Below, one piece after another: positions 3,181 through 19,454 of a stretch of DNA of 64,000 nt (position 1 is its first letter; the number at the start of each line of letters is the position of its first letter). The DNA comes from Sphingobacteriaceae bacterium. Lineage in GTDB: Bacteria; Bacteroidota; Bacteroidia; B-17B0; Aurantibacillaceae. The notes below the pieces were generated by a model that was not told the origin of the DNA, searched no databases, and saw only the letters and a list, made by a program, of their open reading frames with translations. The DNA is taken from NCBI GenBank assembly GCA_947480015.1, contig CANKBS010000012.1, forward strand, positions 1 to 64,000, given 5' to 3'. The translations under genes and the position numbers were made by a program.

Positions 3181-3192
3181 TAAATTTGGAGG
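3181..3192 (+). promoter_or_regulatory. -7-like box and ribosome binding site before mutL
   Basis: TAAATTTG (3181-3188) fits the Bacteroidota -7 consensus TAnnTTTG and overlaps GGAGG (3188-3192) seven to eight bases before the ATG. Either a real Shine-Dalgarno sequence (rare in this phylum) sets the start, or the mRNA is leaderless. Sequence alone cannot separate the two. Confidence 0.4.
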
Positions 3193-3195
3193 TTT

Positions 3196-5025
3196 ATGTC
3201 ATCAAATACCATAGCACTGTTACCCGACCATGTGGCCAATCAAATTGCGGCGGGTGAAGTTGTGCAACGTCCGGCCAGCGTGGTCAAAGAACTTCTTGAA
3301 AACGCTATCGATGCCGGTGCCACGCATATTAAATTAATTTTAAAAGATGCCGGCAAAGCCCTTGTACAGGTTATTGATAATGGAAAAGGCATGAACCCCT
3401 TTGATGCCCGCATGTGTTTTGAACGTCATGCCACTTCTAAAATTAACAGTGCCGACGACCTATTTACTCTTACCACTAAAGGCTTTAGAGGTGAAGCCCT
3501 TGGCAGTATAGCCGCGATTGCTCAGGTTGAATTAAAAACCAAACAGGAGGAAGATTTGGTTGGTCAACAAATTATTATTGAAGGTGGCAAACTCATCGCG
3601 CAAAACGAGTGTCAAACCGCAAGCGGCACTTCCTTTACAGTAAAAAATCTTTTCTTTAATGTGCCGGCCCGTCGTAACTTTTTAAAAAGCGATCAGGTTG
3701 AACAAAAACACATTCTCGATGAAATTGAAAGAGTGGCTATTCCGCACAACGATGTCCATTTTGTGTTGATTAGTAATGGCAATGAAATCTTAAACCTCCC
3801 TCCGGGAAGCCTTATGCAGCGTATTAAATCACTGCTTGGCACCTACATGCAAAAGGAGTTGGTTCAAATAAACGAAGACACTTCTTTTGTCAGAATTTCG
3901 GGTTATGTGAGTTTGCCGGATGCCGCTATTAAAACTAAAAAAGATCAGTATTTTTTTGTGAATAATCGTTTTGTGCGCAATCCGTTTTTGAATCATGCCA
4001 TTTATGAAGCTTACAAAGAGCTTATCGGTTTTCAGTCACACCCGCGTTATTTTATTTTCCTCGATCTCGACCCCAAACACATCGATATAAATATTCATCC
4101 AACCAAGACAGAGGTAAAATTTACCGACGACAAAACGGTTTACATGCTTTTACTCAGCGCCATCAAACGTGCATTGGGCAAGGCCAATGTGTCGGGCTCC
4201 ATTGATTTTGAAACTGAAGTAAATTTTCAATCCGATCCGGCGCAGGCAAATAAAGTTTATCCGCAACCACTCATTTCGTATAACACCAATTATAATCCAT
4301 TTCATTCTACCGCTGCCAACCAGGCGAACAATCCGCTTCAAAAAGCCAACAAACAAAACTGGGAATCGATGTTTGAGGGTTTTAAATCGGATACCGAGGT
4401 GGAAACCGAATCGCCACAGCAAGAACAACAACGCCTTGATGCCATTCGCAAAGAGGCGATCGACTTTCAGGTATTTCAATTACATAATAAATACATCGTT
4501 ACAGCTTACAACCAAAATGTTTTAGTGGTTGATCAACAGCGGGCACACGAACGCATTGTTTACGAGCATTACCTCAATTCAAAAACCGAAAATAAAATCA
4601 GTTCCCAACAATTATTATTTCCCGAACAAATTGAATTAAGTGCTGCAGATTTTTCGCTGGTAAAAGGTTTACTCGATGAATTTAAAAATTTAGGTTTTGA
4701 TCTGGAAATATTTGGTAAAAATAGCATTGTGGTAAACGGTGCCCCCAGTGACATGCAGGACTTTAATGTGGTGCAAACCATTGAAGGTATTGTTGAAACA
4801 TACAAACTCAATACCATTGATGCCAAGGTTGAAAAACACGATAATTTGTGCAGAGCCATTGCAAAAAACATTGGTATTAAATATGGCAAACAGCTTGAAG
4901 TAGAAGAAATGAAATTACTCCTCAATCATTTAATGACCTGTGAAAATCCATTATATACATCTAATGGAAAAACCGTAATGATGGATGTGGAATATAACGA
5001 GATCGAAAAATTCTTTAAAAGATAA
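3196..5025 (+). CDS. mutL: DNA mismatch repair protein MutL
   Basis: MutL is the GHKL ATPase that couples MutS mismatch recognition to downstream repair. The N-terminal ATPase motifs are clear: ELLENAIDAGA (residues 32-42), DNGKGM (61-66), ATSKI (79-83) and GFRGEAL (97-102). A variable Gln-rich linker (about 370-420) leads into the C-terminal dimerisation domain. That domain keeps VDQQRAHERIVYE, a variant of the DQHA(x)2E(x)4E endonuclease motif, but the usual C-terminal HGRP metal-site motif is replaced by YTSNGKTV, so nicking activity is doubtful. The length of 609 aa is normal. It heads an operon with two rhomboid genes; its stop abuts the next ATG. Confidence 0.97.
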   Translation: MSSNTIALLPDHVANQIAAGEVVQRPASVVKELLENAIDAGATHIKLILKDAGKALVQVIDNGKGMNPFDARMCFERHATSKINSADDLFTLTTKGFRGEALGSIAAIAQVELKTKQEEDLVGQQIIIEGGKLIAQNECQTASGTSFTVKNLFFNVPARRNFLKSDQVEQKHILDEIERVAIPHNDVHFVLISNGNEILNLPPGSLMQRIKSLLGTYMQKELVQINEDTSFVRISGYVSLPDAAIKTKKDQYFFVNNRFVRNPFLNHAIYEAYKELIGFQSHPRYFIFLDLDPKHIDINIHPTKTEVKFTDDKTVYMLLLSAIKRALGKANVSGSIDFETEVNFQSDPAQANKVYPQPLISYNTNYNPFHSTAANQANNPLQKANKQNWESMFEGFKSDTEVETESPQQEQQRLDAIRKEAIDFQVFQLHNKYIVTAYNQNVLVVDQQRAHERIVYEHYLNSKTENKISSQQLLFPEQIELSAADFSLVKGLLDEFKNLGFDLEIFGKNSIVVNGAPSDMQDFNVVQTIEGIVETYKLNTIDAKVEKHDNLCRAIAKNIGIKYGKQLEVEEMKLLLNHLMTCENPLYTSNGKTVMMDVEYNEIEKFFKR

Positions 5026-5880
5026 ATGAGTTATAATAATCAATACCGTCCCGGTGGTTTTGGCCACTTACCCATGGTTACTAAAAACATCATCATCATT
5101 AACGTGATTATGTTTCTGGCTACATTGGCCGCGCAAACCAGAGGCATCGACCTGAATAAATACTTTGGACTACATTACTTTTTAGCTCCCGATTTTAAGC
5201 CACATCAATTTATTACGTATATTTTTATGCATGGCAGTTACATGCATATTTTTTTCAATATGCTGGGGGTTTATATATTCGGACAAGTGCTTGAACAGGT
5301 GTGGGGACCAAAACGTTACCTTATTTTTTATGTGTTAACCGGATTAGGTGCGGCATTGGCGCAATATGTGGTCATCCATTTTTCGGTTGGCTCATTGCTT
5401 GGCTCTTTGGAAGCCGTTCAAACAAATTTAACCCGCGAAACTTTTGAAGCCATATTTTCTAATCCCGAATTTCATCACGGCGTTTCGCCTGATTTTATTG
5501 CGGAGTATAATACCTTTGTTAGTCAGTATACCGCCGCGGTTGATGCCGGTTCTCCGCGAGCCTTAAGTTTGGCTTCGCAATTTATTCTCGATTATAAAAA
5601 TCAATTTCTTAATTCACAAATTGTAGTGGGTGCATCGGGCTCTTTGTTTGGTTTGTTGGGCGCTTTTGGTATGTTATTTCCCAACCAAATGCTTTACCTC
5701 TATTTTTTCATTCCTGTTAAAGCAAAATGGTTGGTTATTGCCTACGGTGCTTTTGAATTGTTTTCAGGCTGGAGAAACGACCCCATGGATAACGTGGCCC
5801 ATTTTGCACACATCGGTGGATTATTGGTTGGCGTGTTATTGGTAATTCTATGGCGTAAAGACAGGCGCGAATTTTATTGA
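5026..5880 (+). CDS. Rhomboid family intramembrane serine protease
   Basis: Multi-pass membrane serine protease that cleaves transmembrane substrates. The nucleophile motif GASGSLFG is at residues 202-209 (Ser204) and the catalytic His in HIGG is at 262. The HIFFNMLGVYIFG signature of the first loop and second helix is near residue 74. A polar insertion of about 65 residues (roughly 130-195) separates the early helices from the GASG helix; this is longer than in GlpG-type rhomboids. The ATG follows the mutL stop with no gap and the end overlaps the second rhomboid by 4 bp, so translation is probably coupled. Substrates are unknown. Confidence 0.93.
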   Translation: MSYNNQYRPGGFGHLPMVTKNIIIINVIMFLATLAAQTRGIDLNKYFGLHYFLAPDFKPHQFITYIFMHGSYMHIFFNMLGVYIFGQVLEQVWGPKRYLIFYVLTGLGAALAQYVVIHFSVGSLLGSLEAVQTNLTRETFEAIFSNPEFHHGVSPDFIAEYNTFVSQYTAAVDAGSPRALSLASQFILDYKNQFLNSQIVVGASGSLFGLLGAFGMLFPNQMLYLYFFIPVKAKWLVIAYGAFELFSGWRNDPMDNVAHFAHIGGLLVGVLLVILWRKDRREFY

Positions 5881-6713
5881 AACTAAACATGAACTTTTTT
5901 CAATCCTTAAAATATAATTTTCAGCAGCAAGGTATTTTATCGCAGCTCATCATTGCGAATGTGGCCATGTTCTTAACCGTTAATTTGGTTGGCAATCTCG
6001 CGCATGTGAGTCTGATTGCTTACACTGCTTTGCCCATTGGTGGCACCGAATTTCTTTTTAAATTCTGGACGCCTTTCACCTATATGTTCACGCATGTTGA
6101 TTTGTGGCATTTAATTGGCAATATGATTCTGTTGTATTATATGTCGCAAATTTTTTTTACCATAATGGGGCAAAAGAAATTACTGTACCTCTATGTCATG
6201 AGCGGTTTATCGGGCGGTGCTTTGGTTTTAATGCTGGGTTTAATTTTACCGCAATCATTTGAAAACTCCTCTCTACTAGGGGCTTCGGCTGCCGTGCTGG
6301 GTATTGGATCCGTAATGGCTATTTTTTCTCCGAATTACCGAGTATACTTATTTGGTGTATTTGAAATGCCGTATAAATACTTTTTTTTATTGGTGTTTAC
6401 ACTCAGTACCATTATCGACTTTTCGATAAACACCGGTGGTAAAATCTCACATATTGGTGGCGCACTATTTGGTGTAATTTATGGTTACTACTTAAAAAAA
6501 GGCCATGACTTGTTTGATTTTTCTTTTGCGTTAAAAAAGAAAAGTCATTTAAAAGTGGTGAGTCATACTAAATCATTCGCCGAGCCAAGTGACGTTAAAA
6601 AAACATCCGATGAGCTGGTGATGAATGAACTTTTAGATAAGATTTCAAAAAGCGGATACGATAGTTTAACCAAAAAAGAAAAAGAAGATTTATTTAAATT
6701 GTCCCAAAAATAA
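5877..6713 (+). CDS. Second rhomboid family serine protease
   Basis: A second rhomboid in tandem with the first, overlapping it by 4 bp. The catalytic Ser is in LGASAAVLG (Ser137) and the His in SHIGGALFG (His192). WHLIGNMILLYYM near residue 77 is the rhomboid loop/helix signature. A cytoplasmic Lys-rich tail of about 65 residues (KKKSHLKVVSH onward) follows the last helix. mutL followed by two rhomboid genes is a recurrent Bacteroidota order, though no functional link to mismatch repair is established. MNFFQS, four codons downstream, is an alternative start. Confidence 0.92.
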   Translation: MKLNMNFFQSLKYNFQQQGILSQLIIANVAMFLTVNLVGNLAHVSLIAYTALPIGGTEFLFKFWTPFTYMFTHVDLWHLIGNMILLYYMSQIFFTIMGQKKLLYLYVMSGLSGGALVLMLGLILPQSFENSSLLGASAAVLGIGSVMAIFSPNYRVYLFGVFEMPYKYFFLLVFTLSTIIDFSINTGGKISHIGGALFGVIYGYYLKKGHDLFDFSFALKKKSHLKVVSHTKSFAEPSDVKKTSDELVMNELLDKISKSGYDSLTKKEKEDLFKLSQK

Positions 6714-6814
6714 CCGTCCTCATGCCTTAAAAGCTTTTAATACGTGAATTGTTAATAATTTGCTTTTCTGTTATTAAAGATGGCTTTTGTATTGCTTAAA
6801 TTAGTGACGCTAAC

Positions 6815-7837
6815 ATGAAAATTAAAAGCCCCCTTTTATTTTTATTTTTACTTCCTTTTTCTTTGGCATTCTCCCAATCACAAAAGGCTACGCAGATTGA
6901 GGATGCGGATGAACATTTTAAGAATGGTAATTATTTAATGGCTATTCCTATTTATAAAGCCGAATTAAAAAAAGAACCGAATGATTCAAAAATTAAATTC
7001 CGACTTGGCATTTGTTATGTAAAAACACGTCTTAATCGCGAAGAGGCCGTTGTTTGCCTTGAACAAGCCTCTAAAGACCCTAAAATTGATGAAGACGTTT
7101 GGATTCAATTGGGCAGAGCCTACTTTTTATACAATCGTATTGAAGAGGCTCAAAATGCATTTGACCACTTTGAAAGTTTAAAACCAAAACGCGCCCAGGA
7201 AATTGAACGCGATGTTGAGTACTGCGATAATGCGGTGAAACTTATGCGCAAGCCAAGTAATGTGTCTTTTCAAAATCTGGGCAAGGATATTAATAGTCCG
7301 GATGCCGATTACCTCCCCTTTATTGATGCCGACGAAAACTTTTTAATATTCACTTCACGCCGCAAAGAAAATAATATTGGAGGAAAAAAGGTAGAAATGG
7401 ATGGTTACCGCAGCTCCGATGTGTTTCAAAGCACCTTGGAACATGGTAACTGGACTCCTGCTAAGAATGCCGGACGCGGCATTAACACCAATTTAGATGA
7501 ACAGGCAGTTGGCCTAAGGTCGGATGGTTTGGTAATGTATGTTTACCTAGATCACATCGATAAATTTGGAGACATATATATATCAACTCGTAAGGATCAT
7601 ACAAGTGAATTTGCAAAACCTGCAATTATTGATCCGGTGGTTAATTCAAAAATCGAAACCAGTGGTTGTTTAAGTGAAGATGGTGACTTACTCGTTTTTG
7701 CGCGTCGTGAAAAAATTTCTAATACCAGTGATTTATTTATGAGTCGCAAATTACCAAATGGTAAATGGGGTTTGCCTCAAAAATTACCTGAAACCATTAA
7801 CTCGCCTTTTAACGAAGACCAACCCTTTCTTTCTTAG
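6815..7837 (+). CDS. PorE-like TPR/PD40 protein, N-terminal part ending at an in-frame TAG
   Basis: The N-terminus is a signal peptide (MKIKSPLLFLFLLPFSLAF). A TPR-like region follows (residues 25-120; HFKNGNYLMAIPIY, FRLGICYV), then PD40/WD40-like beta-propeller repeats (ADENFLIFTSRR, EDGDLLVFARRE). This is the layout of Bacteroidota PorE-like and gliding-associated envelope proteins. The frame stops at TAG 7835-7837 after NEDQPFLS, in the middle of a propeller blade, and the same frame then continues the blade. The 340-residue product is therefore a truncated propeller, unless the TAG is a sequencing error or is read through. A Bacteroidota OmpA-family relationship is inferred from architecture. 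Confidence 0.75.
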   Translation: MKIKSPLLFLFLLPFSLAFSQSQKATQIEDADEHFKNGNYLMAIPIYKAELKKEPNDSKIKFRLGICYVKTRLNREEAVVCLEQASKDPKIDEDVWIQLGRAYFLYNRIEEAQNAFDHFESLKPKRAQEIERDVEYCDNAVKLMRKPSNVSFQNLGKDINSPDADYLPFIDADENFLIFTSRRKENNIGGKKVEMDGYRSSDVFQSTLEHGNWTPAKNAGRGINTNLDEQAVGLRSDGLVMYVYLDHIDKFGDIYISTRKDHTSEFAKPAIIDPVVNSKIETSGCLSEDGDLLVFARREKISNTSDLFMSRKLPNGKWGLPQKLPETINSPFNEDQPFLS

Positions 7838-8392
7838 GATGGCGCAACCCTCTATTTTGCAAGCGACGGCTATGACAGTATGGGCGGCTATGATTTGTTT
7901 AAAAGCGACTGGGATCAAAAAACAAATAGTTTTTCCAAACCCGAAAATTTAGGGTACCCCATTAACTCAACCGACGACGATCGCAGCATTTGTGTAACCA
8001 GCGATAATAGGCTGGCTTATGTTAGTTCATTCCGACCAGATGGTTTTGGCGATCTTGATCTGTATCGCATAAAATTTAACGATGAAGAACAGGCAAGTGT
8101 TATTTATACCGGTCAGTTTTTATTGGGCGATTCCATTCCTGCTAATCAACCAAATACCTACGAAATTACTATTACAGTAGTGAACACAGCCACTAAATAT
8201 GAATACACGTTTGTGCCGCATTCAAAGACCGGACGCTATGTGATGGCCCTGCCAGCAGGCACTTACAAGCTTTCCACTTTTTGCAGAGGTTATGTGAAGT
8301 ATAAAGAAGATCTGGTTGTTTCTGACATAGGTAAAATCAATCAGGAAAGAACTAAAAATATCTTTCTCAAAAAAAGTCAAAAGGTTCAGTAG
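7838..8392 (+). pseudogene. C-terminal remainder of the interrupted TPR/PD40 gene
   Basis: Directly after the TAG, in the same frame, the sequence reads DGATLYFASDGYDSMGGYDL, the expected continuation of a PD40 blade. Another blade follows (SDNRLAYVSSFRPDGFGDL), then a carboxypeptidase-regulatory-like domain (YEYTFVPHSKTGRYVMALPA, GTYKLSTFCRGY). The frame ends at TAG 8390-8392. The joined gene 6815-8392 would encode 525 residues plus the interrupted codon. Unlike PorE it has no OmpA-like peptidoglycan-binding domain. An internal ATG at 7880 could allow reinitiation, but would give a signal-less fragment. A single-base nonsense change (for example from GAG or CAG) explains the stop. Confidence 0.8.
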
Positions 8393-8464
8393 CGAATCAG
8401 TTTTATAAGCTGCTTCATTTATCTTATTTAAATTTTCAATACATTCGTTTGCAATATCTAACTC

Positions 8465-9445
8465 ATGAACAGAAAAGATTTTATTAAAAAGGGTGCTTTA
8501 AGTGCATTTCTTTTCAGCCTTTCATCGGCCTTCGGTAATCTGGTGCCGCAAAGTTTGAAAAGCGGTGGCATTGCATACCGTGGCGTGGAAGGGGTGTTTT
8601 CGCCTACCAATACCCACATGGTTGGTAATGGTTTTAAAGTGATGAACTTCTTTCCTAATGGGAAAGGTTTTGAGGAAAGGATGAGTCCGTTTTTTTTACT
8701 GGACTTTAACGCGGAAGTTAATTTTCCGCCTTCCGAAATTTCAAGAGGTGTTGGTGTGCATCCGCATCGTGGCATCGAAACCATTACTTTTGCCTATAAA
8801 GGCAGTGTGGCGCATCACGACAGTGCTGGCAATAGCGGAGTCATTCATCCCGGCGATGTGCAGTGGATGACAGCCGGTGGTGGTGTATTACACAAAGAAT
8901 ACCATGAAAAGAATTTTGACAAACAAGGCGGCGCTTTTGAAATGGTGCAATTGTGGATTAATCTTCCCAAAAAACATAAAATGGCAAAAGCCAAATACCA
9001 AAGTATTCTGCATGCCAGCAAACCCTTTGTAAAACTTCCCGATAACATGGGCTCGGTGCATGTGGTAGCGGGTGAGTATAAAGGCATTAAAGGGATAGCC
9101 TCCGCTTTCTCACCGGTGCATATGTACGACCTACACCTCAACGCTAATGGAATAGTAGATTTTAGTTTGCCTGCTAATTTTAATTCGGGGATATTAGTAA
9201 TTGATGGAAGTGTGGTGCTGAATGATAACATTGCAGTACCTGAAAATCACTACATTCAATTTAAAAATGAAGCTGGTGAGATCCATATCAAAGCCGATAA
9301 AAAAACAATTCTTCTGGTGCTAAGTGGTGAAGATTTAAATGAGCCTTACATAAGTTACGGTCCTTTTGTAATGAATACCGATGACGAAATCAAACAAGCC
9401 ATTGAGGATTACAATGCTGGCAAATTTGGTTTTTTAGCTGATTGA
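8465..9445 (+). CDS. Pirin family protein with export-like N-terminus
   Basis: A cupin of the pirin family. Metal ligands are visible as HPHRGIET (His99, His101) and VLHKEYHE (His143, Glu145), the four positions used for iron in pirins. The MSPFFLLDF and PGDVQWMTAGGG signatures are also present. Unlike most pirins it begins with MNRKDFIKKGALSAFLFSLS, a twin-arginine-like (RK) or general signal sequence, so it may be exported; tatC and tatA are both in this window. Some pirins have quercetin 2,3-dioxygenase activity; the substrate here is unknown. A single gene between the interrupted PD40 gene and a convergent hydrolase. Confidence 0.9.
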   Translation: MNRKDFIKKGALSAFLFSLSSAFGNLVPQSLKSGGIAYRGVEGVFSPTNTHMVGNGFKVMNFFPNGKGFEERMSPFFLLDFNAEVNFPPSEISRGVGVHPHRGIETITFAYKGSVAHHDSAGNSGVIHPGDVQWMTAGGGVLHKEYHEKNFDKQGGAFEMVQLWINLPKKHKMAKAKYQSILHASKPFVKLPDNMGSVHVVAGEYKGIKGIASAFSPVHMYDLHLNANGIVDFSLPANFNSGILVIDGSVVLNDNIAVPENHYIQFKNEAGEIHIKADKKTILLVLSGEDLNEPYISYGPFVMNTDDEIKQAIEDYNAGKFGFLAD

Positions 9446-9464
9446 TTGCATTAAGCTTTGTTTA

Positions 9465-10961
9465 TTACATAAACAAAGCGTTTCTTGGATCAGTGTTTTT
9501 AAAGCTTAAATCGTTTCGGCTATCTTTCTTTGTTTTTTCAAACCGAAAAAACTCCTTGCTTAACAAGCGCTTTAACACAATTTCAATATGTGTGCAGCTG
9601 TTAGGTTGAAGTGCTTTTTCTAAAAGCTCGGTAGAGGCTTTAATTTTACAGGGCAGATAACGCACAAAGCCATTTTCCGGCCTCGGCCTTATGGTAAGGC
9701 CGAGATGTTCGATGCCCGGCTGTTCCGCTCTTATCAAATAGCCCTCAGGAGAATAAATAGCTTCACATCCTTTCATAATATCGTAATTAAAAAAGTAACT
9801 GAGTATTGATGGATTTAAGCGATTGATCTGCCGGTCGGCAAAAAACCCTGTTGGTAATAAATCCGGGTCGTCTGATTCGCCCGCCGTTAAAAGCAAATCA
9901 AAATCCGTGATGGCCTTTCCCTCTTGATCGGTTACTTTAAACATTAGCATCGTATAACGATCGTTGATGAAGGTGTTTTTTCTAAACAAGGTTTTTTCTA
10001 TTTCAAGCTTTTCTTGTTTTTGCACTTCCTCTGTTTCTGATATAAACTTTTGGACAATTTCGGCGTAAGCATTCTCGCTAGTTACCTCTAGGCAATCAAA
10101 TATCGCCGCTATAAGTTCCCGGCTCTTTTCATCTGTCCTGTCTTTGCTCACACTTTTCATAATTCCCATGGTATCGCCAGAATGTGATTTTCCTTTAATT
10201 ACTCTAAATGCAGTTTCAGTGGCATTCAGGTTTTCTTTTACAATCAATTCGTCCGCACTCCAAATGCCGTTTTGCTGAAAATGCACCCGTTGCTCCAAAA
10301 GAAGATAACGGTTATTAAGATTGGCCGAAGCTAAACGCACTACCCCATCAGAACCGGCTTCACCGGTGTAGGCATTTAAATGGTCGTATAATTTACGGTC
10401 TATCGATTGGCCACTGATTACAAAAGGAAAAAAACCGGTTGGAGAAATTTGTTTTATTCCATTGCGGATCCAGTTTACATTTAATTGCCAAGCCTCATCA
10501 CTTCCTAATTCGAGCCAGTTTAAAATTTGTTGTCCGGGCTCTACCCCGTCGAACCACGATTTGAGGCGACTTAAGCGACTTTTTCCCAATTGCGCCAGGG
10601 CCGAACCATGATTGGCAGGGGCCAGCATAATGAGATGACTCATGGGACAAGCTAAGTTATTGGTTTCGTAAAACAGGTGTTGCCAATTTCTAACCAATGG
10701 GCCACCGGTTGAATGGGTAATACAAACAAATCGTTTACCAGATGGGATTTGGTCTTGAATGGCCTGATGCATGGCTTTAGCCACATCGTTTAAACTAACT
10801 TGATCGTTAAAACTAATATACCTGCCTAAAAAGAGCTCGTGTACTTCAATTGCTTGTCTAAGCTGAGTCGCTTCGTTTACAAGCCGCTCCGGCAATTCGC
10901 CATAGGTGTTAAAGTTAGTTACAGAATATCCGTGTACAAAAACCAGAATAATGGGATCCAT
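9465..10961 (-). CDS. Alpha/beta hydrolase, lipase/esterase-like
   Basis: The N-terminal half (about residues 1-270) is an alpha/beta hydrolase: LVFVHGYSV forms the oxyanion-hole strand and THSTGG the nucleophile elbow (Ser84, a GxSxG variant with His in the first position as in many lipases). Asp205 (GSDGVVR) and His260 (GKSHSGD) are good candidates for the rest of the triad. The remaining 230 residues are an uncharacterised C-terminal region with a short Lys/Glu-rich helix (around 300-325). There is no signal peptide, so it is probably cytoplasmic. Phospholipase or esterase activity is inferred; the substrate is unknown. It converges with pirin, 19 bp apart. Confidence 0.8.
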   Translation of the reverse strand: MDPIILVFVHGYSVTNFNTYGELPERLVNEATQLRQAIEVHELFLGRYISFNDQVSLNDVAKAMHQAIQDQIPSGKRFVCITHSTGGPLVRNWQHLFYETNNLACPMSHLIMLAPANHGSALAQLGKSRLSRLKSWFDGVEPGQQILNWLELGSDEAWQLNVNWIRNGIKQISPTGFFPFVISGQSIDRKLYDHLNAYTGEAGSDGVVRLASANLNNRYLLLEQRVHFQQNGIWSADELIVKENLNATETAFRVIKGKSHSGDTMGIMKSVSKDRTDEKSRELIAAIFDCLEVTSENAYAEIVQKFISETEEVQKQEKLEIEKTLFRKNTFINDRYTMLMFKVTDQEGKAITDFDLLLTAGESDDPDLLPTGFFADRQINRLNPSILSYFFNYDIMKGCEAIYSPEGYLIRAEQPGIEHLGLTIRPRPENGFVRYLPCKIKASTELLEKALQPNSCTHIEIVLKRLLSKEFFRFEKTKKDSRNDLSFKNTDPRNALFM

Positions 10962-11141
10962 AGCTTTAATTTTGTTAATCTAAGGTAGAAAAAATTGCGG
11001 AATGTCTTTAATACATTAGGCAAATTGCTCTGATTGGGCTATTATCAGCATATGCGCTTTAATTGCCTAACGGCAAGCAAATTAGTCCAGAATTTGGAAC
11101 ACAAAAAGCTTCAAATTCTTTTTTTTTATTAGGAGAATATA

Positions 11142-11149
11142 TACCTTTG
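11142..11149 (+). promoter_or_regulatory. Bacteroidota -7 promoter element of a candidate small RNA
   Basis: TACCTTTG matches TAnnTTTG exactly. No clear -33 TTG sits 19-21 bp upstream. A start site a few bases downstream would begin the transcript just before the 11154-11173 hairpin and end it at the strong terminator at 11212-11239. Confidence 0.5.
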
Positions 11150-11152
11150 TAT

Positions 11153-11239
11153 TGTGTTACGTTCTAGTAACACTTTATTTCCGTTTTTTTTGGGTAAAAT
11201 GGGAATGATAGCCTCGGTAGCAATACCGAGGTTTTTTTT
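11153..11239 (+). ncRNA. Candidate structured small RNA (about 85-90 nt)
   Basis: No ORF explains this stretch, yet it has a promoter -7 box (11142-11149), a 5' hairpin and a strong intrinsic terminator. The 5' hairpin is GTGTTAC (11154-11160) pairing with GTAACAC (11167-11173) around a 6-nt loop. The 3' hairpin is CCTCGGTA (11212-11219) with TACCGAGG (11224-11231) around a GCAA tetraloop, then eight T. About 38 nt of linker separate them. Small trans-acting RNAs with this kind of promoter are known in Bacteroidota (for example the Flavo-1 motif); I cannot tell whether this belongs to a known family. Confidence 0.5.
11212..11239 (+). terminator. Rho-independent terminator of the candidate small RNA
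   Basis: A perfect 8-bp stem closed by a GNRA-type GCAA tetraloop is followed by eight T residues. The upstream gene (9465-10961) is on the opposite strand and ends elsewhere, so the terminator must serve a non-coding transcript. Confidence 0.8.
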
Positions 11240-11351
11240 AAGCATATGCGTTTAACCTTGGCGTCAAAGGCTTTGGCCCGGCCTCAAAAGTTGTTGAGTC
11301 AAAACTAGTTTTAATCCAATTTAAATTTTGTGTAATTTTTGGGCGCCTCCC

Positions 11352-11372
11352 CCTGAAGAGAAAGTCTTCAGG
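11352..11372 (+). other. Hairpin in the leader of the 2OG oxygenase gene
   Basis: CCTGAAGA (11352-11359) pairs perfectly with TCTTCAGG (11365-11372) around a 5-nt loop, about 85 bp before the GTG start at 11459. It is preceded by TTTTTGGGCGCC (about 11337-11346), which resembles the 5' end of the GGGCGCCC repeat family. A second short inverted repeat (CAGGCT, TTT, AGCCTG; about 11445-11459) touches the start codon. Confidence 0.4.
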
Positions 11373-11458
11373 TGTTTTCGGGTATATAAATCTAAAAACG
11401 GTTATTCATTTTGAATAGCTTACCTTTAGATCTGTCTGTAAAATCAGGCTTTTAGCCT

Positions 11459-12052
11459 GTGGACAAAGATTTTGAAATTCTGATCAGCACTTATATCGAA
11501 AATAAAATCGGTATTGCAGAGCATTTTTTTACCAAAGAATTGCTCGAGCATTTAAAAACAAATTTGCTGGAACTCAGTCGCGATAAGTTACTAAAGGCTG
11601 CCGGTACTGGTCATAATGATGGTTTAAACCACAACAAAGCCATGCGGAGCGATGCGATTTACTGGTTAGACCGTAAGCATAACAATATTTATGAAAACGC
11701 GTTTTTTGATCGCATGGATGCTTTTGTAACTTATCTCAACCAAAGTTGTTATGCCGGCATTAGCAGTTATGAATTTCATTATTCCTTATATGCAGCCGGT
11801 ACTTTTTATAAAACCCATCTTGATCAGTTTAAAGATAATTCCAAACGCAAATACTCCATGATTAATTACCTCAATGCCGATTGGAAATTGGCCGATGGCG
11901 GTCAGTTGTGCATCCATGAAGGTGACACCGTACAATTAATAAACCCAACTCAGGGTAAGACAGTTTTTTTTAAAAGCAATGAATTGCTGCATGAAGTATT
12001 ACTAAGCCATGAAAAAAGAATGAGCATAACGGGCTGGTTAAAAATAAGCTGA
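11459..12052 (+). CDS. 2-oxoglutarate/Fe(II)-dependent oxygenase (SM-20/prolyl hydroxylase-like)
   Basis: A 197-residue protein with the facial triad of the double-stranded beta-helix oxygenases: HLD in YKTHLDQF, a distal His in ELLHEVL and the 2-oxoglutarate-binding Arg in EKRMSITGWLK. The MINYLNADWKLADGGQL segment is typical of the PF13640 family. It probably hydroxylates a protein or small-molecule substrate in the cytoplasm; the target is unknown. The start is GTG (11459), since no ATG precedes the conserved region. A short stem-loop (CAGGCT/AGCCTG) ends at this start codon and could affect initiation. Confidence 0.88.
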   Translation: MDKDFEILISTYIENKIGIAEHFFTKELLEHLKTNLLELSRDKLLKAAGTGHNDGLNHNKAMRSDAIYWLDRKHNNIYENAFFDRMDAFVTYLNQSCYAGISSYEFHYSLYAAGTFYKTHLDQFKDNSKRKYSMINYLNADWKLADGGQLCIHEGDTVQLINPTQGKTVFFKSNELLHEVLLSHEKRMSITGWLKIS

Positions 12053-12074
12053 TTTTTTTTGTTCCGATCATTCG

Positions 12075-12082
12075 TATTTTTG
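12075..12082 (+). promoter_or_regulatory. -7 promoter element upstream of the membrane protein pair
   Basis: TATTTTTG matches TAnnTTTG, 41 bp before the ATG at 12124. No matching -33 TTG is visible. Confidence 0.4.
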
Positions 12083-12123
12083 TATCATACTTCAGAAAAA
12101 AAACTTTTTACTAATTTCACCTT

Positions 12124-13104
12124 ATGAAAGAGAAAAAGGAAACATTGGAGCTTTTTGAAAAAGGTTTCATTTCAGCCGATCAATTCGCTGCCATTGCCAG
12201 CTACCGGTCGCAAGGTTTGTTTTCACTGCGCTCCGAGATTAGGTTTTTATTTTTTATTGCAGTGAGTTTGTTTGTAAGCGGGGCAGGCATCCTTGTCTAT
12301 CAAAACATTAATAGTGTTGGGCATGTTAGCTTACTCAGCTTACTTTTTATCCTTTGCTCGTTTTGTTTTTTTTATGCTTTTAAACACGCTCCCGGATTTT
12401 CAAATGAAAAACAAGAATCAAAAAAATCCTTATTTCCTTACGTTGTATTGGCCGGAAATTTATTGGCAGGCATTTTTATGGGTTATTTACAATATCAGTA
12501 CGCGGTTTTTGGCACTCATTATAACATAGCCACACTTGTACCTACTCTACTTTATTTTTTTAGCGCTTATTATTTCGATCACAAAGGCGTGTTGGCGATA
12601 GGAATTACCGGGCTCTGTGCCTTTATTGGATTTTCGGCATCTCCTTCCGGATTATTGTATAACGATTTTTCGGAAACCTGGGGTTTGGTGTATTATGCCA
12701 TAGCGCTTGCTTTTGTATTTATTGTGTGGGCCGATTTTGCTGAATCTGGTAATTTTAAAAAACATTTTAACGAAACCTATTATCATTTTTCTCTGCACAT
12801 TCTTGGTGTTGCCACCTTAAGCCAAATTAACGATACCTATTGGCCTTTGGCCATGGCCTTACTTGCAGCAGCCGTGTTTTATTTTGTCCGCCTGGCTTAT
12901 AAACTCAAGTCTGCTTATTTTTTGGTTTTTGCCTACATCTATGGGTTTTTTGGGTTAAGTTCACTGTTCGTAAAACTTTTTGAATTTGTCAATCTCATGT
13001 CCCTAATCATTTATTTGAGTCCCTTTTATTTAATGGGCGTCATTTATTTTTTAATCAAAATCATCCGGCATTTAAAAAAACACAGTCAATATGATAGCCT
13101 ATAA
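12124..13104 (+). CDS. Polytopic membrane protein, DUF2157-like
   Basis: A 326-residue protein with a short cytoplasmic N-terminus (about 40 residues, KETLELFEKGFISADQFAAI) and about eight to ten hydrophobic helices. The N-terminal helix-turn pattern and the overall profile resemble DUF2157 proteins, whose function is unknown. It overlaps the next membrane protein gene by 14 bp and both share the EKGFIS/EKAGFI-like N-terminal motif, so they are probably co-translated paralogues acting together in the inner membrane. No catalytic motif is visible. Confidence 0.75.
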   Translation: MKEKKETLELFEKGFISADQFAAIASYRSQGLFSLRSEIRFLFFIAVSLFVSGAGILVYQNINSVGHVSLLSLLFILCSFCFFYAFKHAPGFSNEKQESKKSLFPYVVLAGNLLAGIFMGYLQYQYAVFGTHYNIATLVPTLLYFFSAYYFDHKGVLAIGITGLCAFIGFSASPSGLLYNDFSETWGLVYYAIALAFVFIVWADFAESGNFKKHFNETYYHFSLHILGVATLSQINDTYWPLAMALLAAAVFYFVRLAYKLKSAYFLVFAYIYGFFGLSSLFVKLFEFVNLMSLIIYLSPFYLMGVIYFLIKIIRHLKKHSQYDSL

Positions 13105-14275
13105 AAAAGAACTATTTGAGGCTTTGTTGTTAAAAGACGAAGCCCGAAGCCTTGAAAAGGCAGGATTCATAAACCAAAAACAGGTAAAGTTTATTGAAAC
13201 AAAATTACCTTCTTATAACAGGGCCGATAATGTTTTTGTACTTCTGGGTTTTTTTATTCTTGCAGGCATGCTGTTTTTGTCCTGTGCCGGGTTTTTGGGC
13301 TTTATAACCGCCCTAAGCGGAACAGCCAATAATCGGCACACCTTTTTATTAAGTGCCTTGTTTGGTTTTGTTGCTTTAGAAGGGGTCATTATTCGTCGTA
13401 TGAAAAATTATGCCAATGGGATTGATGATGCTTTTTTAATTTCATCGCTTGGTAATTTATTTGCTTTTATCGGCTTCTCTCTTTACGATGCCGAGAACTA
13501 TAATTTTCTTTTTGCCTCTATGTTTTTTATTGGGCTACTGGCCTGTTTACGTTATGTGGATAGAGTGGCTGCCTTTTTTGCCGTGATGGGTTTATATGCT
13601 TTGGTGGTCAGTTTCTGTATGCAATCCGGCGGACTCTTAAAGCTTTTTCTGCCTTTTGTGATCATGGGTAAAACAGCGGCTTATTATATCATTCTTTTGT
13701 GGTTAAAAAAGAAAGACGCCAAACAAATGTATTACAAAGGCGTGCTTAACTTTTGTGCGGGGCTTTTCACGGTTATTTTTTATCTCTCGGGAAATTACCT
13801 CGTAGTAAGGGAAGCTAATAGTTTATTACTGGGGAACGAATTGGCTCCGGGCTCAGATATTTCGTTTTCTTATTTCTTCTGGGGCTTTACTATTAGTTGT
13901 CCGCTCATCTATATCTACCTTGCCTTAAAACACAAAAAGCGCCCCTTGCTTTGGATTGGTGTGATTTCTTTAGCCTTCGGTATTTTTACCATTCGTTATT
14001 ATCATCCACTATTGCCCTTGGATTTAGCTTTACTAGCAGGTGGCTTAGTACTCTTTATCTTAGCCTATGTTAGCATGCAAAAGTTAAAAGGGAAAACCAA
14101 GGGATTAAGTTATGAGTCCGATCGGTTTCATGGCGGTGAAGAACTTTTGAACCTTCAGGCTCTAGCCTTGATTGAGAAATTTGGCGTTGACTCGGCCTCT
14201 CCAGCACAAACCTTACGTGGCGCCGAACCGGGCGGAGGTGAATTTGGAGGAGCAGGCAGTGGAGGGGGGTTTTAA
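13091..14275 (+). CDS. Polytopic membrane protein, partner of the preceding gene, Gly-rich tail
   Basis: A 394-residue protein with a cytoplasmic N-terminal segment (DEARSLEKAGFINQKQVKFI) related to that of the upstream gene, then about ten transmembrane helices. A soluble tail of about 65 residues ends in GGGEFGGAGSGGGF. Such Gly-rich ends are common in Bacteroidota membrane proteins with TPM-like domains, but no TPM domain is present. The 14-bp overlap suggests translational coupling. Function unknown. Confidence 0.75.
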   Translation: MIAYKKELFEALLLKDEARSLEKAGFINQKQVKFIETKLPSYNRADNVFVLLGFFILAGMLFLSCAGFLGFITALSGTANNRHTFLLSALFGFVALEGVIIRRMKNYANGIDDAFLISSLGNLFAFIGFSLYDAENYNFLFASMFFIGLLACLRYVDRVAAFFAVMGLYALVVSFCMQSGGLLKLFLPFVIMGKTAAYYIILLWLKKKDAKQMYYKGVLNFCAGLFTVIFYLSGNYLVVREANSLLLGNELAPGSDISFSYFFWGFTISCPLIYIYLALKHKKRPLLWIGVISLAFGIFTIRYYHPLLPLDLALLAGGLVLFILAYVSMQKLKGKTKGLSYESDRFHGGEELLNLQALALIEKFGVDSASPAQTLRGAEPGGGEFGGAGSGGGF

Positions 14276-14319
14276 GCCCTAAGTATTCGTGAATAAATTC
14301 TTTAGTCCTCTTAAAAGAT

Positions 14320-14327
14320 TAACTTTG
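14320..14327 (+). promoter_or_regulatory. -7 promoter element before the Lys-rich protein gene
   Basis: TAACTTTG matches TAnnTTTG, giving a leader of roughly 17-20 nt before the ATG at 14350. No clear -33 TTG. Confidence 0.45.
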
Positions 14328-14349
14328 ATTAACCCCTAAATTTTTCATC

Positions 14350-14814
14350 ATGGCTAAATCTATCAAAAGCAAGTCGGCTAAAAAAATAACAAAGGCTGCA
14401 AAAAAAACATCCGATATAAAAAAGAAGCCGGCTAAAAAAGCTGCGCCTAAAAAAAAACTTGCCAAAAAAAGTGGAAAGAAAAAAGATGACCTGATGTGTT
14501 TTTTAACCACGGCTTGTGTGGATCATTACAACTTAGCAGATAATGGCTATGAACTCAATACCCTTCGCCGGTATCGCGACAGTTATTTGGCTGCCACTGA
14601 AACCGGACAACAACTCATTAAGGACTATTACCGCGTATCGCCGGGTATTGTAAAACGCATCAATGCCGATGCTGCGAAAACAACACTTTATGATTTTGTA
14701 TATACACAGGTAAAAAAAGCCTGTGCCGAAATTGAAAAACAAAATTATGTGCTGGCAAAAAAAGTTTATGTGTTTATGGTACAAACACTCATGCGCCGTT
14801 ATGCGGTGTCTTAA
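14350..14814 (+). CDS. Lys-rich N-terminus fused to a CFLTTAC-motif domain
   Basis: Residues 1-48 are almost entirely Lys, Ala and Ser (KKITKAAKK, KKAAPKKKLAKK), like histone H1-type tails and the stand-alone peptide at 26350. Residues 50-154 form a domain beginning DDLMCFLTTACVDHYNLAD, similar to the Cys-containing 'CFI-box' motif, then ELNTLRRYRDSYL. Related stand-alone domains of unknown function occur in Bacteroidota. The basic tail suggests nucleic-acid or other polyanion binding; this is inference. It is followed 12 bp later by the DUF2461 gene. Confidence 0.78.
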   Translation: MAKSIKSKSAKKITKAAKKTSDIKKKPAKKAAPKKKLAKKSGKKKDDLMCFLTTACVDHYNLADNGYELNTLRRYRDSYLAATETGQQLIKDYYRVSPGIVKRINADAAKTTLYDFVYTQVKKACAEIEKQNYVLAKKVYVFMVQTLMRRYAVS

Positions 14815-14826
14815 TTTTTCTATAAC

Positions 14827-15519
14827 ATGAAACAAAAAGTAAGTATTCCAATTTCAGGTTTTGAATTCTTAAAATATCTAGCTAAAAATAATAACCGCGA
14901 TTGGTTTAATACTCATAAGGAGCGGTATTTAAAAGAGCTCGCACCTGTTGAGCAATTCGCCAATGATTTATTAGTTGAACTAAACAAGCACGATGTGATT
15001 GAAACGCCCTCCGGTAAAAAGGCCTTGCATCGTATTTACCGCGATGTGCGATTCTCGAAAGAAAAAACACCGTACAATACACATTGGGGCGGAAGTTTTA
15101 AGCGGGCCGGTAAAAACAGAAGGGGTTCTTATTACTTTCATTTAGCTCCCGGTAATTCCTTTGTGGCCTGCGGTTTCTGGGGGCCTAATGCCGAAGATCT
15201 AAAACGCATACGCGATGACTTTGCTTATGATGCCACGGAGATTCGAAAAATTTTAAACAGTAAAAAAATTAAAAATACTTTTGGCAATTTACAGGGTGAG
15301 CAATTAAAAACAACGCCTAAAGGTTTTAATGCGGATAGTGAAGCCATTGATCTGTTGCGTTACAAACAATTTTTGCTGATTAAAAAATTCAGTGATAAGG
15401 AAGTGGTGGATGGGCATTTTGCAAAAACCTTAGCCGAAACCTTTAAAGCCATGCGCCCATTTTTAGATTATATGACCGACGTATTAACCACCGATGTAAA
15501 CGGACTCAGTACCATTTAA
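14827..15519 (+). CDS. DUF2461 domain-containing protein
   Basis: A 230-residue protein that matches the DUF2461/TIGR02453 family from end to end: FLKYLAKNNNRDWFNTHKER at the N-terminus, IYRDVRFSKEKTPYNTH centrally and YYFHLAPGNSFVACGFWGP further on. The length is typical. Function is unknown. It sits 12 bp after the Lys-rich protein gene and 16 bp before a GNAT gene, so the group 14350-16511 is probably one operon. Confidence 0.88.
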   Translation: MKQKVSIPISGFEFLKYLAKNNNRDWFNTHKERYLKELAPVEQFANDLLVELNKHDVIETPSGKKALHRIYRDVRFSKEKTPYNTHWGGSFKRAGKNRRGSYYFHLAPGNSFVACGFWGPNAEDLKRIRDDFAYDATEIRKILNSKKIKNTFGNLQGEQLKTTPKGFNADSEAIDLLRYKQFLLIKKFSDKEVVDGHFAKTLAETFKAMRPFLDYMTDVLTTDVNGLSTI

Positions 15520-15535
15520 TTTTTTTTATACCAAC

Positions 15536-16048
15536 ATGTACATACTGGAAACCCTTCGTTTTTTATTAAGAGAAACCTCTGCCAATGATGCTGAGCAGGC
15601 CTACCTTCTTAATAGTGATGAAGAGGTGCTGAGATATACCGGCGATAAAGCTTTTGACAGTATTGATCAGGCCCGGATATTTTTAGCAAGCTATGATCAT
15701 TTTAAGAACTATGGATTTGGTCGCTGGGCAGTGATTGATAAAAACACCAAGGTCTTTTGTGGCTGGTGCGGATTAAAATACAGTTCAGACAAAAATGAAT
15801 ATGATATTGGATTCCGTTTTTTTAAAAAATACTGGAACATGGGTTATGCTACTGAAACAGCGGCAGCCTGCATAAAACTCGGCTTTGAAAAATTCGGCAT
15901 ACAAGAAATTGTGGGCCGGGCTATGGTAAAAAATAAAGCCTCTATTCGTGTACTCGAAAAAATTGGATTGGTATACAACAGCGAATTTGATTTTGATGGA
16001 GAGCCGGGACTTATTTATAAAATTAAAAACCAAAAATATGATAACTGA
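15536..16048 (+). CDS. GNAT family N-acetyltransferase (RimJ/RimL-like)
   Basis: A 170-residue acetyltransferase. LETLRFLLRETSANDAEQAY is the usual RimJ/RimL-type N-terminus, YDIGFRFFKKYWNMGYATE carries the acetyl-CoA-binding turn (motif A region), and VRAMVKNKASIRVLEKIG-like sequence (GRAMVKNKASIRVLEKIG) closes the fold. It probably acetylates a protein N-terminus or small molecule; the substrate is unknown. It overlaps the OsmC gene by 11 bp. Confidence 0.9.
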   Translation: MYILETLRFLLRETSANDAEQAYLLNSDEEVLRYTGDKAFDSIDQARIFLASYDHFKNYGFGRWAVIDKNTKVFCGWCGLKYSSDKNEYDIGFRFFKKYWNMGYATETAAACIKLGFEKFGIQEIVGRAMVKNKASIRVLEKIGLVYNSEFDFDGEPGLIYKIKNQKYDN

Positions 16049-16511
16049 GCATTATTACTCACTAAAGGCAATGTGGCATGGCAACAAAGGTAGCGGCACC
16101 AGCGGCCTGCGCGATTATGACCGCAGTCACACGGTTAGTATATATGGCAAACCCGACTTGCATTTGACTACCGATAATGCAGCAGTGGGTGACAAAACAA
16201 AATTAAATCCCGAAGATCTTTTGGTTTCTGCCATTTCTTCCTGTCACATGCTTTCCTATTTATATCTCTGCGCCTTGGAAGGAGTGGTAGTTATTGACTA
16301 TGTTGATAAAGCCAACGGACTCATGATCGAAAACGAATCGGGCGGAGGACGTTTTAAGGAAGTGGTTTTAAATCCAATAGTTACTGTTGCCAATGCCACA
16401 ATGAAAGAAAAGGCCATGCAGCTGCACGGTAAAGCCCATGAAATTTGTTACATCGCTAACTCGGTAAATTTTCCGGTTGTTACCAAGGCAACTTGTTTGG
16501 TTCAAAGGTGA
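16038..16511 (+). CDS. OsmC family protein (peroxiredoxin-like)
   Basis: OsmC/Ohr-type proteins reduce organic hydroperoxides with two Cys residues. Both are present: SSCHMLSYLYLC and HEICYIANSVNFPV. I place the start at ATG 16038 (MITEHYYSLKAMWHG, 157 aa); an in-frame ATG 90 bp upstream would add residues lying wholly inside the GNAT gene and unlike the family. The family motif AMWHGNKGSGTSGLRDYDR is intact. The 11-bp overlap with the GNAT gene suggests translational coupling. Confidence 0.9.
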   Translation: MITEHYYSLKAMWHGNKGSGTSGLRDYDRSHTVSIYGKPDLHLTTDNAAVGDKTKLNPEDLLVSAISSCHMLSYLYLCALEGVVVIDYVDKANGLMIENESGGGRFKEVVLNPIVTVANATMKEKAMQLHGKAHEICYIANSVNFPVVTKATCLVQR

Positions 16512-16534
16512 TTTAATGCGATCAGGATTAAACT

Positions 16535-18187
16535 TTAGTCGGCTTTAGGATAAAATAAAATGGTATACTTTGTGCCACTTAACGTGTGATGCAGCATAAA
16601 AGAGCCATAAGGAGACGTGCCAATAAATTGTTTATCTTGTCTTTCAATCAACATGCTTGCCGCATCGGTTAAAGGACTCAATTCACTGCGATCGGGATAA
16701 AAAGCCAATTGCACTTTAATGGGATACTGCAATAAAAAGAATTCTCCGTTTGGATTTTTAATGATACGATCCATTGGAAAAGGAGCGTGTGAATTAATAT
16801 CACTTAAAATGTCGATACTTGTTACTTTGCCTTTTCCATCAATGCGGTAAATATTTACCGACATGTATTGGCGGCTTTTGGTGACATCATCCCAACGTGT
16901 ACCCTGAGCAATAAAATAGCGGCTTTCACCGGCGGTGGTCATATAAACAGGAACATACTTTTCGGCAAGCGGCGCTATCTGACTTTGATTCATAGGCACC
17001 GGTGGCTGAAAGTTTTTTACGAATTTTGTTTTCTCTGAGCCTTTTTCTTCATCGGAAGTTGGATATAAACTAATCGCAGCCTGAGCTTTTGGAAACTGAT
17101 GTAATTGCACATAAGATTTAAAAAATTTCTCGCGGTTATTACTCATCACCCATAATTTATCGGCTTCGTACCAGCAAATTTCTGGATCCATTGAATTTAA
17201 TTTGTTTTTACCAACAGAATGAATCCATCCACTGATCTTATAATCGGCATCCATTGCAAATGAATATTGTTGCAAAACATCTTCCCCTTTATCGTCTTTT
17301 GTTTTTAATTGAAAGTTGGCAAATGCACCAATGGCTTCTGAATTTAAATTATAACACGTTGACATGGATGTTAAACTCACATCGCCCTCAATACGTGTTG
17401 AATCGAGGCAATCAAAGGTTTTATAGTCTTCAGTTAAATAGAATTTTAGTAAAAACGATTTTCCTTTGGTGCGGGTAATTACAAAATTACGCTCCGATAC
17501 AATGGGATAACGGGTTAATACGGATTCGTCTTTTGGCAAATTGCCTTTAAATAATAATCCGGTTGCGCGTAATGATTTGAATTGTTTTTTAGTGGCCATA
17601 ATGTCTTCAGCCAAGGTGTTTTCATGATACGTGCTCTGCACATAGGCTTGGGGTGGCTGTGGAATCATGCCTTTTACCAATACCGCCAAAGCTTCCATTT
17701 CTGGAACTGTTAAACCTTTTATTGCATCCAAATTATAAATACTCATTGTAATGGCGGTGCGGTTTGGAACCAAAGCATGTTTAAATCCCTTGGGATAATA
17801 TAAAACATAAGCCCCTTCTGATTCCATTTTACGTTCAGCAAGCAACCAATCGCTTTCGTTTAATAATTTACCGGTATTATCAAAGGTTTGTTTTTTAAGC
17901 ATCACCACAGCATTGGCACCCTGTATATAGTCGTTTCTTTTAGGGTCTTTAAAAACCGCACTTCCGGTATCTGAAACAAATTCGCCGGCATGAATCACAC
18001 TTCCATAAATAAGATGGTAATAAAATATACTAAACTGATCTTTCGCCGGAGCATCAAAATTTAAAATATAAAATTGAAGGTTAGGGTCGCTGCAAACCGG
18101 AGGCACTGCAACTTTAAGTGGTAAGTCTTGAGACGTTAAGTTTAAACTTACAAGCGCAAAAAGCAAAATGGTAAAGATCTTTTTCAT
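16535..18187 (-). CDS. Secreted protein of unknown function
   Basis: A 550-residue protein with a signal peptide (MKKIFTILLFALVSLNLTSQ). I choose ATG 18187 over the in-frame ATG at 18238 because only this start gives a signal peptide at the N-terminus. The rest is soluble and rich in beta-strands, with no motif I recognise; segments such as AEKYVPVYMTTAGESRYFIA suggest repeated sheet blades. Probably periplasmic or surface exposed. It is monocistronic and convergent with the OsmC operon. Confidence 0.8.
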   Translation of the reverse strand: MKKIFTILLFALVSLNLTSQDLPLKVAVPPVCSDPNLQFYILNFDAPAKDQFSIFYYHLIYGSVIHAGEFVSDTGSAVFKDPKRNDYIQGANAVVMLKKQTFDNTGKLLNESDWLLAERKMESEGAYVLYYPKGFKHALVPNRTAITMSIYNLDAIKGLTVPEMEALAVLVKGMIPQPPQAYVQSTYHENTLAEDIMATKKQFKSLRATGLLFKGNLPKDESVLTRYPIVSERNFVITRTKGKSFLLKFYLTEDYKTFDCLDSTRIEGDVSLTSMSTCYNLNSEAIGAFANFQLKTKDDKGEDVLQQYSFAMDADYKISGWIHSVGKNKLNSMDPEICWYEADKLWVMSNNREKFFKSYVQLHQFPKAQAAISLYPTSDEEKGSEKTKFVKNFQPPVPMNQSQIAPLAEKYVPVYMTTAGESRYFIAQGTRWDDVTKSRQYMSVNIYRIDGKGKVTSIDILSDINSHAPFPMDRIIKNPNGEFFLLQYPIKVQLAFYPDRSELSPLTDAASMLIERQDKQFIGTSPYGSFMLHHTLSGTKYTILFYPKAD

Positions 18188-18404
18188 AGAAGGTCGATTA
18201 AATTCGGCGCAAAGGTAACCTATTAAACCACCAAACAATTAAATAACAGGCCTAACATGACTTGTTTCAGGCTATTTCAGACAAATTAAGCCTTAGGTGT
18301 TTAACATTCCTACATTCTGTCGTTTTCCCCCTTTTTATCCTTAAAATATTTTTCGCCATAAAATCATTACTAGGTAAGCTAATTTGGATTGCCTAGCTTT
18401 ACCT

Positions 18405-19454
18405 ATGGATGATCAGGAACCAAAACATGTGCGTCGCGAACGTTACAAAGGCACACACCCAAAAGCCTTCAAAGAAAAATACAAAGAGCTCGAACCTGAA
18501 ACCTATTCGGCCGATGTAGCTAAGGTGATGCAACAAGGACGCACGCCTGCGGGCATGCACCGTTCTATTTGTGTGGATGAGATTTTACAATTTCTTCAAT
18601 TAAAACCCGGACAAATTGGTTTGGATGCAACTTTGGGTTATGGCGGACATAGTTTAGAGATTTTAAAAAAAATAGTGCCCGGCGGAAAATTATTTGCTAG
18701 CGATGTCGACCCTATTGAATTACCAAAAACCAAAGAACGTTTGGCGGCCTTAGGTTTTGGAGAGGATGTGTTGTTTGTGAGAAAAATGAATTTTTCGGGC
18801 ATCGATCAACTAGTAGCAGAGTCGGGTTTATTGAATTTTGTGTTGGCCGATTTGGGCGTTTCTTCCATGCAAATAGATAATCCCGAACGTGGCTTTTCAT
18901 TTAAGATAGAAGGTCCGCTTGATTTACGTTTAAACCCAAGTAGTGGCAAATCGGCGGCCATGCTTATTAAAAACGCCACGCACCAACAACTCGAATTCAT
19001 TTTTAGTGAAAATGCCGACGAACCTTTTTCAGAACAAATAGCCGAAGCTATTATTCGCACCTTAGCAAAGGGCAATAAAATTGTAACTACTTCGCAGTTG
19101 CAGAATATTATTAAAGACACGTTAACGTTTTTACCGGCTGCTACCAGAAACGAAGAAATTAAAAAAGCCTGTCAGCGTTGTTTTCAGGCTTTGCGCATAG
19201 CGGTGAATGATGAGTTTGGCGCTTTAGATAAATTTCTTGACAAACTTCCTGAATCATTGGCCCCGGGTGCCCGCGTTGCCATTCTTTCTTTTCATTCGGG
19301 TGAAGACCGAAGGGTGAAAAAAGCCTTTCAGTATTTTTTTCGTGAAGGTATTTTTTCTGAGGTGGCTCCTGATCCTATTCGTGCTTCGGCCGAAGAATGT
19401 TTTGCCAACCCAAGAGCCAAATCGGCCAAACTACGTTGGGCGGTTATGGCTTAA
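18405..19454 (+). CDS. RsmH/MraW-type SAM-dependent rRNA methyltransferase, N-terminally extended
   Basis: The Methyltransf_5 fold is clear: LDATLGYGGHSLEIL (SAM site), FVLADLGVSSMQIDNPERGF, PLDLRLNPSSG, FQALRIAVNDEFGALD and AILSFHSGEDRRVKKAF. Canonical RsmH makes N4-methyl-C1402 in 16S rRNA and lies in the dcw cell-wall cluster. This gene stands alone and has an extra 50-residue N-terminus (RRERYKGTHPKAFKEKYKEL, then QQGRTPAGMHRSI), a feature I recall from a separate RsmH-like subgroup; it may be a paralogue with a different target. The start is ATG 18405; an in-frame TTG at 18384 is less likely. TAGCTTTA, near the -7 consensus, precedes the start. Confidence 0.85.
   Translation: MDDQEPKHVRRERYKGTHPKAFKEKYKELEPETYSADVAKVMQQGRTPAGMHRSICVDEILQFLQLKPGQIGLDATLGYGGHSLEILKKIVPGGKLFASDVDPIELPKTKERLAALGFGEDVLFVRKMNFSGIDQLVAESGLLNFVLADLGVSSMQIDNPERGFSFKIEGPLDLRLNPSSGKSAAMLIKNATHQQLEFIFSENADEPFSEQIAEAIIRTLAKGNKIVTTSQLQNIIKDTLTFLPAATRNEEIKKACQRCFQALRIAVNDEFGALDKFLDKLPESLAPGARVAILSFHSGEDRRVKKAFQYFFREGIFSEVAPDPIRASAEECFANPRAKSAKLRWAVMA

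Follow-up and report, generated by a model that had tools for sequence, protein, structure and literature searches.

We assign positions 11154..11239 on the plus strand of the 64,000-nucleotide stretch of DNA analyzed here (the window) to a predicted small regulatory RNA gene, an assignment that we make with high confidence from comparison of sequences. The RNA is very probably a previously uncatalogued regulatory small RNA with a predicted length of ~86 nt. We read its relatives as a family of small RNA genes because their stems carry compensatory changes, the loop between the stem arms is retained, and a TAnnTTTR box lies upstream of all 14 copies.

Organization of the locus

As the initial annotation had described, the predicted gene lies in a 497-bp gap between two flanking ORFs; the gap is free of any ORF of at least 40 aa. 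Upstream, a divergent gene on the minus strand (9465..10961) encodes a hydrolase-like protein of 498 aa with a weak match to DUF7379 that falls below the family cut-off. Downstream, a gene for a 2OG-Fe(II) oxygenase (11459..12052, plus strand) is found on the same strand as the RNA, 219 nt beyond its T tail. The interval separating the predicted RNA from the oxygenase gene contains a further short hairpin, CCTGAAGA...TCTTCAGG, that has a weak run of T (window positions 11352-11372) and is possibly part of the leader of the oxygenase gene.

The −7 promoter box TACCTTTG (consensus TAnnTTTG) occupies positions 11142..11149 of the plus strand. In Flavobacterium psychrophilum, the TAnnTTTG box is located at −12 to −5 according to the accessible text of PMC9723704, and we therefore expect transcription to initiate at about position 11154, where a 5′ hairpin (11154..11173) begins in which the arms GTGTTAC and GTAACAC (11154-11160 and 11167-11173) pair over 7 bp. 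A middle hairpin of 13 bp follows at 11175..11208 and presents an 8-nt loop, TTTTGGGT, at 11188-11195; the folds and the alignment of 14 copies mark this hairpin as the family core. The predicted RNA closes with an intrinsic terminator (11210..11239) built from a GC-rich 8-bp stem with a GCAA loop, CCTCGGTA-GCAA-TACCGAGG (11212-11231), and a tail of eight T residues (11232-11239). Thus the box, the 5′ stem and the terminator of the initial annotation are all present in the DNA, whereas the middle hairpin, the part that relatives conserve, had been overlooked.

Folding of the 86-nt RNA (11154-11239) yields three hairpins with an energy of −36.3 kcal/mol, compared with a mean of −14.6 for shuffled sequences (z −7.75; none of 200 shuffles as low). 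In addition to the promoter box and the fold, the prediction draws on a family model that returns this copy with an E value of 1.7e-8 in its genome. A terminator scan of window positions 1-20000 places the terminator of 11142-11239 as its top-listed site. Over these 20 kb the scan as a whole gives 19 sites versus 20.5 in shuffles, which is no excess, so the scan alone is insufficient and the case rests on conservation. The longest ATG-started open frame within the RNA is 18 codons, and by eye the alignment contains no common frame.

Family members and distribution

The middle hairpin together with the terminator occurs at 14 places. This genome accounts for two of them; the search of 39 further genomes of the genus yielded the other 12, distributed over five genomes. 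The second copy in this genome (C3:219953-220017) was found by DNA search and is 83% identical over 65 nt, and the copies first found in genus relatives have in common the 16-mer TTTTTTTTGGGTAAAA ahead of a terminator. We built a covariance model from 8 copies, then 10, then 14, and ran it on 40 genus genomes. The final model places two copies in this genome (G000), four in G001, five in G030 and one each in G010, G011 and G017. These 14 copies score from 55.8 to 74.5 bits and the next matches at most 43.9, although all 14 are in the final model and their scores are thus not independent of it. The four to six copies left out of the earlier models were already found at E ≤ 6e-4 (that of G010 at 4e-4 with the second model), with the exception of G030e, which had an E value of 0.001 with the first. 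The lower-scoring matches that were aligned (L049, L083, L092 of G584) either lack the loop or have a damaged one.

Across a sample of 395 genomes of the class, true members are confined to this genus, and the match in G584 is without the loop. Similarly, 87 genomes of the order, which consists of a single family, contain no further member outside the genus; two weak matches there, in G407 and G053 (E 6e-4 to 9e-4), are not counted as members, and that of G053 has no loop. The exact 16-mer TTTTTTTTGGGTAAAA is found in 6 of 296 genomes of the phylum, in unrelated sequence in the five besides this genome. A scan of named genomes for the 16-mer plus CCYCG returned nine loci, none of which is a member by fold, and a scan of viral contigs returned three loci and no members. 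In G207, a genome from another class of the phylum, we observe seven dispersed elements of ~95 nt (L035-L041) that start with the 16-mer TTTTTTTTGGGTAAAA and continue with CTCCGTGAACATCAAGGTCTT...GCGTTGCTTTTT; these elements have no match in Rfam and do not contain the hairpin of the new family.

Covariation and the conserved loop

In the 14-row alignment, which was fitted to a model with the tested structure and so leans towards that structure, 92.1% of 252 cells are paired compared with 75.5% in shuffled alignments, and both-sided changes are found in 12 of 18 pairs, covering 44 cells compared with 14.0. None of 500 shuffles equals the alignment in paired cells, in cells changed on both sides, in pair types or in covariation score, whereas two of 500 do so in the number of pairs. 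When the partner is slid by 1-3 columns, pairing drops to 45-61%. The first alignment, made with MAFFT from 8 copies, gave the same picture, with 87.4% paired, 18 cells and 0 of 500 shuffles as high. Both helices contribute, as 7 of the 11 modelled pairs of the middle hairpin and 5 of the 7 pairs of the terminator helix display both-sided changes across the family.

The loop reads UUUUGGGU in 13 copies and UGUUGGGU in the remaining one. The same loop UUUUGGGU is carried by stems as unlike as CCGUUUU/AAAAUGG, UAUAUUCU/AGAAUAUA, GUUACUUU/AAGGUAAC and UGUGCUUCU/AGGAGCGCA. A loop that stays constant on a drifting stem is probably the recognised part of the RNA. Two orthologous tandem partner copies, G001b and G030b, have a shifted pairing register and a shorter loop, and the fold of G001d is weakly better than those of its shuffles (z −1.52). 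The 5′ hairpin is restricted to the two copies of G000, the only ones whose leader has room for it; its sequence differs between them, and it is not conserved in the family. Conservation in close relatives, whose absence the initial annotation had named as refuting its reading, is nevertheless observed. The family core comprises the middle hairpin, with its UUUUGGGU loop, and the terminator.

Promoters

Within 60 nt upstream, all 14 copies have a TAnnTTTR box, compared with a shuffled mean of 2.95 (0 of 1000 shuffles as high); in random 60-nt stretches of these genomes the box has a background frequency of 5-9%. A TTG exactly 20 nt ahead of the box is found in seven copies, compared with a shuffled mean of 2.0 (3 of 2000 as high). 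The window copy is outside these seven and has no TTG at −33. In 12 of the 14 copies the inferred start falls near the foot of the conserved stem, and the predicted RNA therefore comprises little beyond the two hairpins, at ~65-75 nt. The first copies of G001 and G030, which are orthologous, are most alike in the RNA (identity 0.87), less so in the promoter (0.75) and least in the two flanks (0.62 and 0.57).

The TAnnTTTR box of every copy and the covarying terminator helix provide the promoter and terminator of its own, in an intergenic gap, by which an sRNA gene is recognized. The independent regulatory RNA proposed in the initial annotation is supported, at the level of sequence, by the occurrence of 14 copies across 6 of the 40 genomes of the genus, by the compensatory changes in both helices and by these upstream boxes.

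Possible mode of action

We consider it reasonably probable, though well short of assured, that the window encodes a trans-acting RNA of ~86 nt from a lineage-specific paralogous family that acts by means of its loop. The conserved sequences suggest that transcription would begin at a dedicated primary-sigma promoter and stop at the terminator of the gene itself, and covariation points to an architecture in which a changeable stem would present the fixed loop UUUUGGGU, with the terminator hairpin following. Because the loci are scattered and unrelated, we infer that the action through the loop would be in trans. The loop would base-pair with ACCCAAA-type sites near the starts of a few mRNAs and so block translation, a step to which we assign an even balance of belief and doubt. 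With several divergent copies, a genome would set the dose of the RNA or answer different signals.

A search for the loop complement ACCCAAA before starts gave 4 of 903 in 1.2 Mb of G030, where permutations average 2.40 and ACCCAAA takes rank 5 of 35, so that the enrichment is not specific; neither G001, G039 nor the window showed a clear excess. The 31 ORFs with an ACCCAAA-type site include only two homologous pairs, one of them between genomes. The pattern ACCCAAAN{1,20}ATGAA has 22, 37 and 37 matches in G000, G001 and G030, respectively, versus 27, 39 and 22 for backward controls. Gaps of 2-5 nt between ACCCAAA and ATGAA are over-represented in G030 (17 of 37, p 3e-4, for an interval picked afterwards), and 11 of 12 G030 ORFs with such a gap look exported by a crude rule, versus 50 of 98 sampled ATGAA starts. 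Although these figures resemble a regulon, we do not propose one in G030, as permuted 7-mers of the same letters matched or outdid ACCCAAA over 1.2 Mb of that genome. The over-representation of ACCCAAA in G030 may stem from the general C and A content before starts.

This lack of enrichment of complementary mRNA sites is one of several observations that would also suit a real trans-acting RNA whose loop, instead of serving as a base-pairing seed, would dock an RNA-binding protein. CsrB is a decoy RNA of this kind, titrating an RNA-binding protein. A fixed loop on a freely drifting stem, up to five copies per genome, and little or no single-stranded 5′ leader in most copies all agree with protein docking, which we nevertheless regard as possible but unlikely: no protein partner is known, each RNA has one loop and no array of repeats, and eight nucleotides of loop would suffice for a seed as well. 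Marginally more doubtful is a specific form of this proposal, a lineage-specific decoy set of minimal stem plus terminator, with the loop UUUUGGGU as its sole fixed part, that would titrate a putative Bacteroidota RNA-binding regulator; its scaffold would have been duplicated and given new stems, with as many as five versions in one genome. We retain the paralogous, loop-acting RNA as the preferred reading.

Genomic context

An exonuclease/GIY-YIG gene precedes three copies (in G001, G030 and G011), and in two genomes a second copy and an HTH/HipA pair come next at this locus. The exonuclease gene is present in 30 genus genomes. Among the 20 in which we examined the downstream region, the motif is found only in G001, G030 and G011; in G028, one of these 20, the contig ends too early to tell. 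In a tree of the exonuclease protein (29 rows), all six carriers fall in one group of ten with four non-carriers (support 84/98), and the carrier label changes three times, compared with a shuffled mean of 5.6 (0 of 500 as low). The distribution is compatible with a single origin plus some losses of the family.

The remaining copies have unrelated neighbours. Across the family the genes after the copies include an M20 peptidase, the HTH/HipA pair, UbiA and genes without a family. At least three of the 14 copies (G030c, G030d and G001d) face a convergent neighbour as their next gene. In G017, we also note two identical 127-codon ORFs (L101:2349-2732 and 2761-3144), 412 bp apart from start to start, that lie near the sRNA copy and immediately past a tRNA-Ser gene; they are a tandem duplication.

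The position of the oxygenase gene on the same strand, 219 nt past the T tail, could suggest that the window element is a cis-acting leader, either an attenuator or a riboswitch, of that gene. We find this very improbable, because the genes downstream of the copies are unrelated and sometimes convergent, the first of the tandem copies in two genomes precedes only the second copy, and no Rfam riboswitch matches. A dispersed DNA repeat like REP or MITE elements, without a function as RNA and resembling a hairpin and terminator by chance, would account for multiple scattered copies and for the few beside genes of mobile character (a ParB-like protein in L082, DUF5675 in L095), but is just as hard to credit given that copies within a genome have strongly diverged outside the loop and yet keep the pairing, the box (14 of 14) and the terminator, that the orientation of hairpin, box and terminator is fixed, and that the window copy has no match in phage or plasmid records.

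Comparison with known RNAs

The Rfam check recommended in the initial annotation, with Flavo-1 as the named candidate, returned no family at the gathering threshold, and we rejected a riboswitch or known Rfam family as an identification; the sub-threshold matches rest on the terminator. The best of these is PsrR1 (RF02701), a cyanobacterial RNA with a terminator hairpin of similar sequence, which reaches 24.7 bits against a threshold of 42 and aligns well at the terminator only. Flavo-1 (RF01705) is likewise a Bacteroidota sRNA motif of similar size with U-rich and A-rich stem arms, but it forms one long stem broken by internal loops and has conserved letters of its own; at its threshold of 42 bits it matches neither the window nor any of the 14 copies, which come from 12 sources. 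A genuine Flavo-1 (45.3 bits, threshold 42) is present in G001 at L095:5239-5329 (C1, about 2044238-2044328), 1.8 kb from one copy of the new family.

Among described systems, the closest in kind is FopS, a family of paralogous sRNAs of Bacteroides thetaiotaomicron. According to the accessible portion of PMC11697453, FopS has 14 members with a single-stranded seed and a terminator, represses susC-like mRNAs, is bound by the RRM protein RbpB, and has been deposited in Rfam by its authors. As far as that portion describes them, the two families share a phylum, short multicopy RNAs, promoters of the TAnnTTTG type, a 3′ terminator hairpin, and one short shared element per RNA. They differ in that the seed of FopS lies in its single-stranded 5′ stretch, whereas the shared element of the new family is the loop of a covarying hairpin. 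FopS also belongs to another lineage. Given the different layout, we do not assign the new family to FopS. The Rfp sRNAs of F. psychrophilum, as outlined in the available text of PMC9723704, resemble it in description as independent short transcripts with strong folds and TAnnTTTG promoters from the same phylum; the same text has a stem-loop of Rfp18 predicted to pair with several mRNAs.

A literature search with the loop letters UUUUGGGU gave, among the matches listed, titles on eukaryotes, viruses and other topics, and none on bacterial sRNAs. We found no description of the new family by title or abstract start, though supplements or papers beyond the collection searched could still contain one.

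Implications

Homologs of the classical RNA chaperones are absent from Bacteroidota, as stated in the accessible portion of PMC11697453. Few sRNA families of this phylum have been described, and the new family adds an example that is small, multicopy and confined to one clade. The covariance model is now available for finding more members. Because an 8-nt loop is all that stays fixed on a stem free to vary, the function of the family could be probed with a single loop mutation.
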